A DNA stretch of 64,000 nt, from positions 744,001-808,000 of the forward strand of contig NZ_JAUSQX010000001.1 of the NCBI RefSeq assembly GCF_030811535.1, given 5' to 3'. The notes beneath the pieces are model-generated. The model made no database searches. It was not told the DNA's origin and saw nothing but the letters and a program-made list of their open reading frames with translations. This DNA comes from Trueperella bonasi. GTDB taxonomy: Bacteria; Actinomycetota; Actinomycetes; Actinomycetales; Actinomycetaceae. A program made the translations under genes and the position numbers. Positions 40,527 through 47,686 of this stretch are shown piece by piece. Positions within the stretch are counted from its first letter, which is position 1, and each line of letters starts with the position of its first letter.

Positions 40527-41174
40527 ATGTCCATCTCAGCGTTGAGTGTTCCTAATATTTCCAGCATGGAAGTCGAAGAAGGCAAGCAAGCCCTTCGCTC
40601 CGCTATCCGAGCTCACCGCAAGCAGCGGGGAAAGAAAATGTTGGAAAAGTTTTCCAAAGAATGGGCGCAAACGGTTTTGCATTTCGTTGGTGAGCGCGAG
40701 CTCGTAGCCTGCTACGTCTCCGTGAATAAAGAACCGCCCACGCGCGAAGTTGTCGCAGCCTTATGCGAGGCGGGAAAACGCGTGTTGCTACCCAAACTCG
40801 GCCCTGGCCTAACTCGTTCGTGGGGCTTGTATTCACCGCGGGAAGAGCTTGTGGAAATGGCTCCCGGCCGGCCTCCTGAGCCTCCCGGTGAGGCGCTCGG
40901 GCCCGAAGTTTTAGCCGACGTCGAGGCGCTCGTAATCCCGGCACTGGCGATTTCCCATCGCGGGGCGCGCCTTGGTCAAGGTGGCGGTTGGTATGACAGG
41001 GCGCTGAAGAAAGTCAGCCCCAATGCCCTAGTTGGCGCGATGATCTATCCCGAAGAGTTGCTTGAGGAGTCCATCCCGCAAGACGAAATGGACATGCGGG
41101 TTCCGTACGTTATCCATCCGACGGCGATCTTGCAGACAAGCGCCGCGAGAGAAGGCTGTCCACAGTTCGGCTAA
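40527..41174 (+). CDS. 5-formyltetrahydrofolate cyclo-ligase
   Basis: 215-residue MTHFS enzyme that converts 5-formyl-THF to 5,10-methenyl-THF with ATP. Seen: EGKQALRSAIRAHRKQR near the N-terminus, a YVSVNKEPPTREVVAAL strand and the ATP/substrate loop LAISHRGARLGQGGGWYDRAL. The ATG at 40527 gives 13 residues more than typical; ATG 40566 (MEVEEGKQALR) is an alternative. Divergent from glp, in the order seen in mycobacteria. Confidence 0.94.
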   Translation: MSISALSVPNISSMEVEEGKQALRSAIRAHRKQRGKKMLEKFSKEWAQTVLHFVGERELVACYVSVNKEPPTREVVAALCEAGKRVLLPKLGPGLTRSWGLYSPREELVEMAPGRPPEPPGEALGPEVLADVEALVIPALAISHRGARLGQGGGWYDRALKKVSPNALVGAMIYPEELLEESIPQDEMDMRVPYVIHPTAILQTSAAREGCPQFG

Positions 41175-41243: not shown

Positions 41244-41912
41244 ATGGTTCACTCCCACCTTTCAAAGCCCCAGACGGCACGATCATCACCTTTGCGCGCC
41301 ATTCTTTGGCGATGGCGATGGGTGGGCGCAGCTATCTTTGCGGTCATGGCAATCCAAGCTATCGCGCCCGTTCCCGGTGACGAGCCATCAACGCCTATCG
41401 TCGTGACCACCCGCGAGATAGCTGCCGGCGAACTGCTCGAATCTGGCGACCTCACCATCCAGCACATCAGCTCCAACATCGCAGGAACCTTAGAACACGT
41501 GGACGATGCGGCCGGAGAGTATCTGGTCGGCCCGCTCCCCGAGGGGGCGCCCGTGCTCGCAAGCCACCTGCTCACCTCCGACTTCCTAGACAGCGCCGCC
41601 GAGGGCACCATCATCGTGCCCCTCACCATCGTCGACTCCGGTGGCACCGCACTCTTACAGCCGGGCGTGCATGTCGACCTGTACGCAATGCCAGAAGAAT
41701 TTTCCGAGATGACCGACGCCGAACGGCTTGTCGGCGGAGTCCGCGTTGCCGCGATCGCCACCAACAAGGGCACCTCTACCCTACTCGCCACCACTGAGGA
41801 CACCCACGTGTTCTACTTTGAAATTCCAGAAAGCGCGGTCAAGCGCGTACTGGGCGCGGGATCACGAGCGCCGCTACATGCCGTGCTATCCGGCCCACGT
41901 AGACCTGGCTAG
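41244..41912 (+). CDS. SAF-domain membrane protein (CpaB/FlgA-like)
   Basis: 222-residue protein with a basic N-terminus, a single membrane segment (about 25-45) and an exported SAF domain (about 52-115, IVVTTREIAAGELLESGDL then GAPVLASHLLTSDF). The C-terminal half resembles the RcpC/CpaB-type beta region (GTIIVPLTIVDSGGTALLQPGVHVDLYA). Such proteins handle surface polymers (pili, polysaccharide); here no pilus genes are adjacent. Actinobacteria often keep an SAF-domain gene next to 5-FTHF cyclo-ligase. Confidence 0.85.
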   Translation: MVHSHLSKPQTARSSPLRAILWRWRWVGAAIFAVMAIQAIAPVPGDEPSTPIVVTTREIAAGELLESGDLTIQHISSNIAGTLEHVDDAAGEYLVGPLPEGAPVLASHLLTSDFLDSAAEGTIIVPLTIVDSGGTALLQPGVHVDLYAMPEEFSEMTDAERLVGGVRVAAIATNKGTSTLLATTEDTHVFYFEIPESAVKRVLGAGSRAPLHAVLSGPRRPG

Positions 41913-41916
41913 ATGG

Positions 41917-42318
41917 CTACAAGTTCCCGAAATGGGGTGGCACATCCGCCAAAATTTCGCGATCGCGAGCAGACAGTACCGGCTTATCGGTAAAACTACT
42001 TCCGCCGTCACTGGTCTCACGGCTGTTATTCCGCTCGCCATCTGACTTGTGCTCCGGATTTCGCCCAGCTGATTTCTTCGCGGCTTGCCTTGGCTCTTGC
42101 CGAGTCCGGCGATCGCTCGCGTGCAAAACCTCTTCGGCGGACTCGAATTCACCCGCTTTGATCCGTTGGGCATCAACATCCGAGAGCATGACGACGCGGC
42201 GCGAGCCCCGGCGTCGTACCGGCTTACCAACGCTACGTACGGCATCATCGACCACCGGTTCCGATGACCGATCTGGGCTCCCGGAAGGATCGGATTTCTC
42301 GCTAGCGTTCACCGTCAT
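41917..42318 (-). CDS. 133-residue charged protein overlapping the pseudo-helicase gene
   Basis: I do not recognise the family firmly. The ATG at 42318 lies inside the last six codons of the large upstream gene (17-bp overlap), so it is translationally coupled to it. The product is hydrophilic and mostly disordered-looking: an acidic start, PVRRRGSRRVVMLSDVDAQR, basic stretch RRTRQEPRQAAKKSAG, acidic/Ser stretch, and the C-terminus LSARDREILADVPPHFGNL. A D-x-P-P-H-[FW] C-terminal tail is known to me from small actinobacterial proteins of unknown role. The frame stays open well upstream, but that part is out of frame with the helicase-like gene and not coding. Confidence 0.6.
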   Translation of the reverse strand: MTVNASEKSDPSGSPDRSSEPVVDDAVRSVGKPVRRRGSRRVVMLSDVDAQRIKAGEFESAEEVLHASDRRTRQEPRQAAKKSAGRNPEHKSDGERNNSRETSDGGSSFTDKPVLSARDREILADVPPHFGNL

Positions 42319-45300
42319 CACCAAGAACCGGACCCTCATCACCCAAGTCCAAGCTACCCGTAACCGAGTGATCCTCAGCGGGTTCTCGTGGCTCGGCCGC
42401 CACGGCGATGAGCCCCGAACGCCGCGCAACATTGCGCAACACGACGTCGATCTGCTCACCGCGCCGCTCAATCCCAAGCTCGGCCCGCAATTCATCCACC
42501 AGCTCGTCCTCGCCGCGCACCTTGCCATCGGAGGCAATCCACGCGATCATGTCATCCAGCTGATCATCGGTATAGGCTGCCAAACTCAAACCGGGAGCGA
42601 TCTGCGGCCGCTCACCGCGCGGGCGAAGTCCCTCATCCGGGTTATCGATCCCCGGATTCAGCTCGTCAAGTTCGGGCTCGTTCCACCCCTGCGCCAGCTC
42701 CACGCTCTCCTCTACCAAAGTTGGCACTCGCACCGGCGCGGGCTCATCAGGAAAACGTTCGCGTAACAATTCTTCAATCGCATTTACCTGGCCTTCCGGA
42801 TCGATAAACAGCGAACTTGAGAACGTCTGGAACACCTGCCAGCCACGCGAGTGCAAAACGTCGATCCAGAACCGGTCCCTGCGCCGCAATGACTTCTCAT
42901 TCACGTACGCCGGATCATCCATCACCACCGCGACCGCATACTCACCGCCACGTCCAACGACGAGCGGGATCCGCGGCGAACCCTGATAGCCGTAGGATGC
43001 GCGCGTTGACCAGCCGCGATCGTGCAAACGATTGGCGACGTCGGCAAGAAGCGGGGCGACCTCGTCGTCGGAAACGACGTGCGAAACCTCGCCACCACTT
43101 GCCTCATCAATCAGGCGCGAGAGCAAGCGCGGACCGGCAGTGGACACGCGGCGCGCGTCGATATCGCCGGGCCCAAGTGCAGAAACGATAGTCAGCTCCG
43201 AGCTCGCTGCGCAGACCGCGTCAATCAAACCGGCCGGACCGTCCGGCGTGGCCAGTGCACCAAAGCTGTGCAAAACCCGCCCGTGGACGGTCTTGCCATA
43301 GCCGACCGATAAGATCACGTGATCGCGCTTCAGCCCGGTTGCCTGCGTGATGTCAGTAATCACGAAACCGGCCAAATTTTCGACGTCCCGGGAACCGACC
43401 GTTTCAACCGCCTCCCGAACCCGATTCGCGTGAGTGGGCGACACCGTCACCACAGCAAGCGACTCCTCGGGGCGGCTCATCGCGTGGTCAAGAACCGCGT
43501 CAACAACCGCATCCACCTCAACCTGGGTCGACTCCACCGCGCCCTCGCCGGACGTGCCGGGCACGCCCCGCCCGTCGACGTACACGAGCTTGGAGCTCCG
43601 GGTGGCATCAACGCTCGGAGGAAGCGCCACGTGATCATAGCCGAGCTCTTTCAACGCGAAAGTCGATAACGCATCATGCTGTGCCTGGTAGGTGGGCAAT
43701 TCGGCCACCGGAAGCACGTCTGCGAAAACCTGCACGTTCTCGGCGCCAGGCCGCTTCAAATCCGCAACGAGCACCGCCTGCCGACCTCGCATCATCGGCG
43801 AAATCAGCTGGGCCACCGAATTGGCAGCCTCCACGATCACTAGATCCGCCCACGGCATCGGCGGAATAAACTCGGCCAACACGGTTGCCGGAACCACCCA
43901 CACCGGCCGGGCCGCCTGCACGAGCCGCGAATGGGTTGCAATCGCATCTCGCAGACCGCCCGTTCCCTGCTCGGCAAGAGCCTGGTCCAGTTTCAGGGTC
44001 TCTTGGCGCCTTGACTGCATCAGTGCACGCGAATTATTGACCACGGCACGCAACACGGGGCCTGCAAGCGTCCGAGTATGGGCACGATCGCACTCGCATA
44101 AGGTCTCGAGCAGCTTCACCAGATCGCGCGGGCCAAGGCTCGATAACGCGTCGGATTTCCCAATAATTTCTTCGAACACGGCGGAGGTGTATGCAAGATC
44201 GAGTTCCGCGGCAATACCTTCCGGTACAACGCCTCGGGCGACGACGTCGTCGAGAAATTCGCCAAAACCGGCCTCGCGCAAAGTGCCAAGCAGCGCATTG
44301 CGTTCGGGAAGGGTGGCCATGTGGTCCGCATCGGCACCGAGGGCGGAAAGCCGCGACTGCAGCTCTTCAAACTCCATGTCAAAGAACGGTTCACCATCGA
44401 GGTGACCCATGAGGGATTCGAGATCCTGCTGCACTTCGATGCGCGTAGCCCGAATTTGCGCCATGCCGTCGGGCAGCGTGGGCCAGCCGCCATCTGTGCT
44501 GTACCGGCGCCAAACCTCCCGGCGCTTTTGCACCTTAAGCAGTTCTTCGTGTAGGTTCGCGGTTGATTCCCCGGGGCGCACCAGATCCAGGGCCTGTTTT
44601 TTATAACGACGGCGGTCGGCAAGTTTCATCGAGTGCCCGTGCGAATCGCGCCAATCGCGCGGCGCGCAGGCGATCGCCATATTCAACGGCGAAGTTTCAA
44701 AAACTTGCGGAACGAACGTGTCAAGAGAATCAGAAATGCCGTCGAGCACGTCAATCTGTTCAAACCACTGCGCAAGCGTGGTGGGCTGCTTCATCGACGT
44801 TTCGCCAGCCGAGCGGGAAGATTGGCTAATTGCGGCCGGAACCCTGATATCACGGAGTCTGCGAACCGCATCGAGGGCTTTCGTGCCCTCGGAGGCGCTC
44901 GAAATTGTTGACGAGGCCCAGGCAGACGAAGAGATCTCGGGATCGAACGCACCCAGCTCCGCTGCTCTGTCCAAATCTGCACGTACTGCGTCGAAGCCCT
45001 GATCCTTCATCGTGTTAACAGCTTTTTGCCCGAGCCTTATTCGCGTTTGCGGGGCGTCATCTTGCGCCATCAAACTTGCGAGCTTTTCAAGGAGTTCGCG
45101 GACGGACGTACCCCATTCGGGCTCCTCACGATGCAAATCCCCCACAAAAGACTCGAGATCTTGACGTGCCGAAACCAAACGAGCTCGCAGCTCCAGCGTT
45201 TCGTCCGTAGGAAGTTCGGGGCGCTCCAAGCGCAAACCGGTTCGAATGCGCTGTGCAGCCCCGTCGACGTCGGAAAAATCCAGAACCAGATCGCCCAAGC

Positions 45301-46699
45301 CCAAGTGCTCGAGTTCGTCGATCAGTTGGCACCCGGAGGATAGCCTTGCCGGAACTACCAAAATGGAGCGATTCGACGCCGCGGCATCCGCACAGATTGA
45401 AGCTATCGTTTCAAACCGGCGCGAACCGGGCGGGCAATCCAAAACGACCGAACGGCCAGATGCCACCGCCTCTACGGCGTTAAGCTCTGCCACATCGAGA
45501 TCACCGGCGCCTCGCTCAACTTCTGGTGCGCGGTCCTCGTCTTTGCCCGGTGGAAGCGGCGTTACCGAAAGCTTCCGAGTCTTGGCATCACCCGCAAGCG
45601 CCATCATAATGCCCGACGTGCGGATATAGGGTTCCATCGCCTCCAAGTCCGCGAGTAACGTGCGCTCGGGGCGTTCAAAGCAACCCAAATGGGCCACCAT
45701 TTCACTCGCAAAACCGGGCAGGTACATTCGGCCAATTGACTCGGCCAACGCGAAAAGTTCGTCGAGATCTGCCGTGCGCTGGGCGGCCTGCCGCAGCTGG
45801 GTGAGATGCTCGGCTGTAGCACCGTTCTCACGCAATGCACGCAAAAATGCGGGATTGAATTCCGTGCGCTTCAACTGGCGAACAGCCGCGTCATCGCCGT
45901 CGAACTTTAGCTCGAGCGCACGAAACAACGCATATTCGTTAATTTCCTTCGCCTCGCGCGGCGGCTCGGCCTCAGCTGGCTCTGCCAACTGAGGCTGCTC
46001 TGGTCGGGCTCCGCCGTCATCAGCGGTGCTCGCATCTGGTTCGACGTCGCCGCTGGCCGGCTCGTCGCTGCTGGTCCATTCGTCGCCGTCACTTGCCGGT
46101 TCGACGTCGACCATCGCAAACTCGCCCGTCAGTTCGGGCGCGTCGAAATGGGCGGGCACACCCGGCTCAGTTGCGGGTGGTAACTCGGTCCAGGTGAACT
46201 GGCCTACTGCCAACGAGACCGGCGCATGACCATACTCTTCCGCAATACGCGCAGTTGTGGCATTCAGCCGCTGCAGATTCTTCATCGCGCGTTGCTGTGC
46301 AAAACTTTCCCGTACAAGCGAAGTGATACGCACGGGAGAACCGGAAGCAAACAGAGCGGACCCCGTGGGATGCGGATGGGTCAGATCTACGAGGGCGCTG
46401 CCCACATCGCTCGTCGTTTGGTCGGCTGTGAGGGCCCGCTCCGCCAGTTCTGCATGCCAATTTTCATACGCCTGATCGAGCAGTTCTTCGCGTGAGGCCG
46501 TCGGCTCGTCGCCGCTAACCTCCTGCTCCTGGGCCTCCTCGCCGGAGTCTGGATCTACGCTCTCTGCCACATTTTCAGCGGGCTCTACCGACTCATCGGC
46601 GCTCTCAACGCTCGGCGCACTCTGGCTAGGCTCATCTGGCGTTTGCGCACTAGGCACCGACTCCGGGGACTTTTTACGACGTCTAAAGAAAGGGCTCAC
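42302..46699 (-). CDS. DUF4011-type helicase homologue with decayed ATPase motifs and endonuclease-like end
   Basis: 1465-residue protein. Layout: basic start (SPFFRRRKK), a Ser/Glu/Pro-rich acidic stretch (to about 70), a DUF4011-like region (to about 380), a superfamily-1 helicase core (about 400-1190) and a C-terminal restriction-endonuclease-like domain (about 1225-1310, SLRRRDRFWIDVLHSRGWQV). The Walker A position reads CPPGSRRFETI at about 425, where relatives have PPGTGKSQTI; Walker B reads ADLVIVEAANSVAQ at about 950 instead of DLVIFDEASQV; motif VI reads IDAVCAASSE instead of NVALTRAR. ATP hydrolysis seems lost while the fold is kept. GTG 46699 is preferred; TTG 46738 would add 13 residues. 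Followed by a coupled 133-aa gene. Confidence 0.82.
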   Translation of the reverse strand: MSPFFRRRKKSPESVPSAQTPDEPSQSAPSVESADESVEPAENVAESVDPDSGEEAQEQEVSGDEPTASREELLDQAYENWHAELAERALTADQTTSDVGSALVDLTHPHPTGSALFASGSPVRITSLVRESFAQQRAMKNLQRLNATTARIAEEYGHAPVSLAVGQFTWTELPPATEPGVPAHFDAPELTGEFAMVDVEPASDGDEWTSSDEPASGDVEPDASTADDGGARPEQPQLAEPAEAEPPREAKEINEYALFRALELKFDGDDAAVRQLKRTEFNPAFLRALRENGATAEHLTQLRQAAQRTADLDELFALAESIGRMYLPGFASEMVAHLGCFERPERTLLADLEAMEPYIRTSGIMMALAGDAKTRKLSVTPLPPGKDEDRAPEVERGAGDLDVAELNAVEAVASGRSVVLDCPPGSRRFETIASICADAAASNRSILVVPARLSSGCQLIDELEHLGLGDLVLDFSDVDGAAQRIRTGLRLERPELPTDETLELRARLVSARQDLESFVGDLHREEPEWGTSVRELLEKLASLMAQDDAPQTRIRLGQKAVNTMKDQGFDAVRADLDRAAELGAFDPEISSSAWASSTISSASEGTKALDAVRRLRDIRVPAAISQSSRSAGETSMKQPTTLAQWFEQIDVLDGISDSLDTFVPQVFETSPLNMAIACAPRDWRDSHGHSMKLADRRRYKKQALDLVRPGESTANLHEELLKVQKRREVWRRYSTDGGWPTLPDGMAQIRATRIEVQQDLESLMGHLDGEPFFDMEFEELQSRLSALGADADHMATLPERNALLGTLREAGFGEFLDDVVARGVVPEGIAAELDLAYTSAVFEEIIGKSDALSSLGPRDLVKLLETLCECDRAHTRTLAGPVLRAVVNNSRALMQSRRQETLKLDQALAEQGTGGLRDAIATHSRLVQAARPVWVVPATVLAEFIPPMPWADLVIVEAANSVAQLISPMMRGRQAVLVADLKRPGAENVQVFADVLPVAELPTYQAQHDALSTFALKELGYDHVALPPSVDATRSSKLVYVDGRGVPGTSGEGAVESTQVEVDAVVDAVLDHAMSRPEESLAVVTVSPTHANRVREAVETVGSRDVENLAGFVITDITQATGLKRDHVILSVGYGKTVHGRVLHSFGALATPDGPAGLIDAVCAASSELTIVSALGPGDIDARRVSTAGPRLLSRLIDEASGGEVSHVVSDDEVAPLLADVANRLHDRGWSTRASYGYQGSPRIPLVVGRGGEYAVAVVMDDPAYVNEKSLRRRDRFWIDVLHSRGWQVFQTFSSSLFIDPEGQVNAIEELLRERFPDEPAPVRVPTLVEESVELAQGWNEPELDELNPGIDNPDEGLRPRGERPQIAPGLSLAAYTDDQLDDMIAWIASDGKVRGEDELVDELRAELGIERRGEQIDVVLRNVARRSGLIAVAAEPREPAEDHSVTGSLDLGDEGPVLGDDGER

Positions 46700-46780: not shown

Positions 46781-47686
46781 CTAACTCACTGTTTGGACCT
46801 GAGAGTGCTGATCGCAAAAGACGCTATCCCCACAGTTTTCGCACGTCACAAGCCGGGCTCGGCAACTTGGCTCATCGCAGTTGTGCAAGAGCGACGTAGG
46901 GCCCTGACACTTATGGCACCGGCCAATCACCTCCGGATTCTCACCAAAATCCATGACTTCACGGCCGTCAAATACCGTGAGCGCGCCCTTCCAACGGCCC
47001 TTGTTGCCGAACTTTTCTGCGTAGCGCACAATCCCGCCATCGAGCTGCATCACATTAGAAAAGCCGCGGTTCTTCATCACGGCCGTCAACACTTCACAAC
47101 GGATACCGCCCGTGCAGTACGTGAGAATCGGAGTTTGCTTGAGATGATCGTACTCGCCCGCATCAAGCAGCTTAATAAAATCGTGCGTGGTGTTCGTTGG
47201 CGGAACGATCGCACCCTCAAAACGGCCAATCTCAGCCTCGATTGCGTTACGGCCATCAAAGAACACCAGATCGGGATTGTCGGCAATCACCTGCTCAACC
47301 TCCTCGGGCTTAACGTGCACTCCGCCGTCGATCACGCCACCACGATCCACCTTCAACTCGTCAGGCGCACCAAAGGCCACAATTTCCTTGCGCACCTTCA
47401 CCGATAGACGTGGAAAGTCAAGCGAGTTGCCGCGCTCATCCAGGCCCGTCCCCTCGGAAATTTTCCACTCGATATCGCGGAACGGCTCATATTCTTTGGT
47501 GGCCTTCTGGTATGCCTTAACCGCCTTCAGCTCCCCGCCCACCGTGCCGTTAATCCCATGCTCAGAAATGAGGATACGCCCGCGCAGGCCAAGACGCTCG
47601 CACAGGTTCCACTGCCACAACCGCACCGCATGCGGATCTGAAAGCGGCGTGAACTTGTAATACAGCAGGATTCGAGTTTGCACCAC
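46781..47686 (-). CDS. trhO: tRNA uridine-34 hydroxylase (rhodanese family)
   Basis: 301-residue TrhO/YceA-type rhodanese-like enzyme that makes 5-hydroxyuridine at tRNA position 34. N-terminal acylphosphatase-like domain (LLYYKFTPLSDP, ISEHGINGTVGG), rhodanese domain with catalytic Cys191 in LTYCTGGIRCEVL, and a C-terminal Cys-rich tail (CHKC...C...C...CENCGDSVFC) that may bind zinc. Starts at tandem GTG codons with GGAAG upstream. Lies between tRNA-Arg and the pseudo-helicase gene. Confidence 0.93.
   Translation of the reverse strand: MVQTRILLYYKFTPLSDPHAVRLWQWNLCERLGLRGRILISEHGINGTVGGELKAVKAYQKATKEYEPFRDIEWKISEGTGLDERGNSLDFPRLSVKVRKEIVAFGAPDELKVDRGGVIDGGVHVKPEEVEQVIADNPDLVFFDGRNAIEAEIGRFEGAIVPPTNTTHDFIKLLDAGEYDHLKQTPILTYCTGGIRCEVLTAVMKNRGFSNVMQLDGGIVRYAEKFGNKGRWKGALTVFDGREVMDFGENPEVIGRCHKCQGPTSLLHNCDEPSCRARLVTCENCGDSVFCDQHSQVQTVS

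Follow-up and report, generated by a model that had tools for sequence, protein, structure and literature searches.

A giant SF1 helicase homologue without ATPase and nuclease residues is retained at a fixed locus across an actinobacterial order, next to the gene of a small tail protein

The window analysed here, a stretch of 64,000 nucleotides of Trueperella bonasi (contig NZ_JAUSQX010000001.1, positions 744,001 to 808,000), carries a giant gene whose product resembles an SF1 helicase without the residues of an ATPase, and the question is what a genome of 1.9 Mb keeps such a gene for. The initial annotation described a DUF4011-type helicase with an endonuclease-like domain, with all ATPase motifs changed and with selection, rather than random decay, acting on it. 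The reading frame is as described there: it lies on the minus strand (42302..46699), starts with a GTG at 46699 with a GGAGG just 5' of it, and runs for 1465 codons to the stop at 42302-42304.

Alignment with orthologues agrees with the initial annotation that Walker A, Walker B and motif VI are all changed. The remnant Walker A (aa 420-432; 45404..45442) reads PPGSRRFET versus PPGTGK[ST]QT in orthologues (GPPGTGKSQT in active ones). The remnant Walker B (aa 952-960; 43820..43846) has VEAAN in place of DEAS, with loss of the motif's Glu. Motif VI survives as a remnant (aa 1158-1169; 43193..43228) that reads AVCAASSEL versus AITRARARM, with both Arg absent. On these changes, a working ATPase was rejected. 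A second Walker A, which by the initial annotation would have refuted the loss, does not occur elsewhere in the protein, as a scan of the 1465 aa for [AG]x4GK[ST] found none. Among Pfam profiles, the MTES_1575 nuclease domain alone matched the giant protein (PF18741; 43.7 bits, above the curated cut-off of 38.2, E 2.9e-11). In this Vsr-like domain (aa 1220-1310; 42770..43042), a conserved Asp and a conserved Glu, presumed to be metal ligands, are replaced by Pro1245 and Val1259. The dead nuclease is a loss beyond those listed in the initial annotation. The giant protein has no Pfam match to DUF4011 (PF13195), and the only trace of that family is a weak sub-threshold match at the N-terminus of a relative, L022 (E 0.011), so that the DUF4011 label for this part of the giant is weak. 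The protein further contains a conserved N-terminal domain (aa 75-176; 46172..46477) with W81, HPxG at 110-113, G166 and W170, shared by dead and active members, and a conserved C-terminal domain (aa 1358-1430; 42410..42628) that is helical in the structural model.

The AlphaFold model, which covers residues 248-1440 (pLDDT 89.9), matched Aquarius, Ighmbp2, Senataxin, Upf1 and Dna2 in the PDB. It predicts two RecA domains in an Upf1-like arrangement (2xzo: VIA Z 17.1, 4.5 A over 404 residues), confirming at the level of a predicted structure that the giant has an SF1 helicase core of the Upf1/Ighmbp2/Dna2 type. In contrast to these SF1B proteins, which are active enzymes, the giant has its motifs Ia and II separated by an insert of about 430 aa that is helical (aa 494-925; 43925..45220). 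Folded alone, the insert gave a pLDDT of 93.7 and no PDB match at E<=0.001; its best VIA Z was 7.2, a value uninformative for helical bundles.

A homologue of the giant was present in 39/39 relatives, and across the order the gene was found in 146 of 149 genomes from 20 families (141/143 of those of good quality), the smallest genome being 0.8 Mb. Its occurrence beyond the order is limited, mainly to family f38. Synteny, scored with HMMs, places a convergent SAF-domain gene (41244..41912, plus strand) as a fixed neighbour in both dead and active loci, followed by a second fixed neighbour, the gene for 5-formyltetrahydrofolate cyclo-ligase (40527..41174, plus strand), present in 75 of 86 long loci. 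On the other side, a rhodanese-type gene (46781-47686, minus strand) precedes the giant by about 80 bp in the same orientation; it is not conserved there (0/86 long loci), and a universal stress protein gene is commoner at that position. Intact orthologues from families f4 and f17 adjoin the same convergent SAF gene, several also having the genes for the folate cyclo-ligase and MoeA farther along, and this common neighbourhood reflects vertical descent at one locus and not a mobile defence island. The SAF/competence locus of Micrococcus luteus (PMC8467076) was considered as the same locus and rejected because the arrangement differs; the HTH-17 regulator matching that locus was absent from the giant loci except for one BldC-like match (L281). 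The core genes of Pseudomonas aeruginosa include one with DUF4011, which flanks a defence hotspot (PMC10250203), another case of a DUF4011 protein encoded by a fixed chromosomal gene.

Among about 200 distinct homologous sequences, only eight orthologues had GKS/T at Walker A, all of them from families f4, f17 and f45, the last outside the order; these eight sampled active orthologues retain both GKS/T and DEAS. The Walker A loss is clade-wide, a point that the initial annotation had proposed to test, and this argues against a recent pseudogene. Intact Walker A and Walker B stand at the same locus in L217, L219, L221, L222 and L223 (f17) and in L176 and L179 (f4), and Walker A is lost in two f17 relatives, L218 and L220. 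A fragment in f4 (L241), whose genome is 73% complete, has PPGTGATQ at Walker A, so the motif may have been lost in f4 too. In a tree of the giant homologues computed without the motif columns, the 68 in-order dead sequences formed one clade (SH-aLRT 99). By parsimony, the losses of Walker A and of Walker B each took four changes, outgroups included. Several independent losses inside the order were considered on this count, but a grouping of every in-order dead sequence, the two f17 members among them, into one clade was not rejected (AU p 0.152). Intact orthologues still occupy this locus in two families, which shows that both Walker motifs had gone early in the order's history, and probably once for most of the order. 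The nuclease signature changed to Pro and Val/Leu together in the group of f1, f3, f8, f9, f13 and f20, and by this alignment the loss of the conserved nuclease residues is common to the subclade of the T. bonasi giant. In most families, that of T. bonasi included, both catalytic centres have been lost. Several members of f5, f6, f11 and f15 retain the acidic nuclease residues, indicating that the ATPase went first in those lineages. The losses were therefore stepwise and extended to the nuclease, and the earlier description of the motifs as uniformly decayed is not entirely accurate. Meanwhile, the f14 orthologues L209, L210, L211, L236 and L237 apparently lack the nuclease domain, with no alignable MTES_1575 region, and L013 has a long low-complexity insertion within its pseudo-nuclease domain.

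Pairs of giant genes with dS from 0.1 to about 1 gave dN/dS of 0.06-0.27, below 1 as the initial annotation had expected; the active pair L176-L240 gave 0.26. When omega was pooled by region over 16 dead pairs, it was lowest in the pseudo-nuclease (0.043), followed by 0.069 in the N-terminal domain, 0.071 in RecA2 and 0.073 in RecA1, versus 0.44 in the disordered linker. By these rates, the whole fold, dead domains included, is shown to be under strong purifying selection. Conservation relative to the whole protein was also compared between active and double-dead members at matched divergence. In active members, relative identity was 1.35 in RecA1, 1.29 at Walker B and 0.95 in the insert segment aa 640-745 (44465..44782; WR, RR, RPG, LH, W, WPxLP), versus 1.03, 0.91 and 1.30 in double-dead members, in which this segment is the most conserved of the insert and the nuclease reaches 1.18. 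As measured by relative identity, constraint has not been relaxed but has shifted: it has left the ATP site and now lies on the helical insert and the pseudo-nuclease.

A small gene without prior annotation overlaps the last codons and the stop of the giant. This ORF (41917..42318, minus strand) encodes a disordered-looking protein of 133 aa with the C-terminal tail LSARDREILADVPPHFGNL, in which PPHF occurs; the tail consensus is D-x-R-L-L-x-[DE]-x-P-P-H-[WFY], the x before P-P-H being also given as [VR]. A search 3' of the giant on its own strand found a tail ORF at 149 of 188 loci; three controls (opposite strand, upstream and shuffled sequence) gave 0/188 each. Its start falls within -60..+100 nt in 136 of these 149 cases, most commonly with a 4-nt overlap (53/149), and it is also found 3' of intact orthologues and of the f38 copies. 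At the level of gene arrangement, these positions demonstrate a coupling of the giant with the PPH[WFY]-tail protein. The tail protein matched no Pfam or NCBIfam family. Its profile was found in 117 of 148 class genomes, mostly in one copy and mostly without the giant, and in many class genomes that lack the giant the tail protein stands beside the same SAF gene. Therefore, the giant cannot be its sole partner. Although the search also accepted His after PPH, the 149 giant-adjacent tails all have W, F or Y there; of 60 genomes lacking the giant, 39 have His and 21 an aromatic residue. This split may reflect phylogeny. Many of the class-wide tail proteins (L287-L370) also share another conserved stretch ahead of the tail, LPD.T.DE..GWG.

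What, then, is the giant for? The reading that we favour, by a modest balance of probability drawn from comparative genomics, is that it is a non-catalytic scaffold descended from an active helicase-nuclease and working with the tail protein. A DUF4011/PDC-S37-like active SF1 helicase-nuclease at the fixed locus would have given rise to the order-wide descendant, which would now serve as a structural subunit with no catalysis of its own. Together, the helicase and pseudo-nuclease domains may form a rigid clamp or scaffold, with the helical insert and the pseudo-nuclease as putative docking faces, and the disordered tail protein, to judge from the gene coupling, could tether the complex to a partner present class-wide. 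By analogy with RecC (PMC1185551) and AddB (PMC4824097), in which inactivated helicase and nuclease domains are retained as structure, the giant might plausibly bind nucleic acid without translocation. The analogy, dead helicase plus dead nuclease domains that are maintained, is functional: RecC and AddB belong to a UvrD/RecB-like lineage, whereas the giant is Upf1-like and has no known active motor partner. A role as an AddAB/RecBCD substitute was rejected, since AdnAB-size nuclease ORFs are present in the host genome, separate from the giant. The PriA pseudohelicase of Deinococcus radiodurans (PMC4504706) likewise shows a clade-wide loss of ATPase motifs, and it retains DNA binding and a protein partner; unlike the SF1 giant, it belongs to SF2 and its partner, DnaB, is known experimentally.

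The origin of the giant brings in a rival to the scaffold, namely that it is still a diverged anti-phage protein that works by sensing or as a decoy instead of by catalysis, derived from systems of the Hhe/ProA/PDC-S37 type. The giant shares with these the order of N-terminal domain, SF1 AAA_11/AAA_12, MTES_1575 nuclease and C-terminal domain, and its intact orthologues match over about 770 aa, scoring 742-828 bits with anti-phage ProA (NF058533) and 769-868 bits with PDC-S37 (PADLOC, a 1550-position model). However, even these scores are far under the NCBIfam cut-off of 1500 for ProA, and the giant itself reached 213 bits with ProA, 69.7 bits with Hhe (NF042953; curated cut-off 2000) and 218 bits with PDC-S37, the last in three stretches, best in the C-terminal part and not full-length. 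The giant differs from all three in having neither ATPase nor nuclease residues, and, in contrast to patchy defence islands, it is a universal, single-copy and syntenic core gene of the order, retained in tiny genomes; we regard a present defence role as unlikely. Among other relatives, the MTES_1575-type giant HEPN-transglutaminase-helicase-Vsr-wHTH proteins (PMC3710099) share an SF1 helicase, a Vsr-like nuclease and a C-terminal domain, but the T. bonasi giant is shorter, no HEPN or transglutaminase domain was found in it, and both of its catalytic centres are lost.

The strong constraint on the RecA domains would also suit a nucleotide sensor or regulator, one that binds ATP or another nucleotide through the Q-motif and the RecA cleft without hydrolysis and switches a partner. 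The Gln of the Q-motif contacts adenine, and it is retained in 57 of 76 dead members, so ATP binding without hydrolysis is possible in relatives; Asp402 is retained in 69/76. Yet the Lys, the Ser/Thr and the glycines of the P-loop are gone, and the T. bonasi giant has Glu405 for the Q-motif Gln and has lost both the Glu of Walker B and the arginines of motif VI, which leaves this reading rather unlikely. That the giant instead acts on an active DUF4011 paralogue of its own host, as a regulator or inhibitor, could be imagined from the large active paralogues of some relatives (L051-L056), but there is no AAA_11 match above cut-off in the genome of T. bonasi or in G007, both of which have the giant, and we give the idea very little weight. 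A pseudogene on its way to loss would explain the stepwise loss of motifs along the tree and the apparently missing nuclease domain of f14. It is at odds with ORFs intact throughout, even in reduced genomes, with dN/dS well below 1, with the very low omega of the dead domains and with near-universal retention; dN/dS and retention rule out a recent pseudogene, a slowly decaying one is hardly credible, and together with the clade-wide loss they bear out the selection that the initial annotation had proposed.

Neither the helicase fold nor the parent family of the scaffold proposed here is new, and pseudohelicases have been recognised before, one by one, as RecC, AddB, D. radiodurans PriA and Utp25. 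The literature searched held no description of the giant protein, nor of any core orthologue that is double-dead order-wide, has intact relatives at its own locus and comes with a tail-bearing partner spread over the class. It is possible, and we put it forward tentatively, that the locus encodes a new actinobacterial core complex in which a class-wide PPH[W/H]-tail protein is served, in one order, by a co-translated, defence-derived dead giant scaffold. Because intact, ATPase-dead and ATPase-plus-nuclease-dead orthologues exist at one locus in many species, the non-catalytic function of a helicase-nuclease becomes directly testable. Meanwhile, the class-wide PPHW-tail protein, which belongs to no Pfam or NCBIfam family, offers a concrete way into a so far undescribed core function of actinobacteria.
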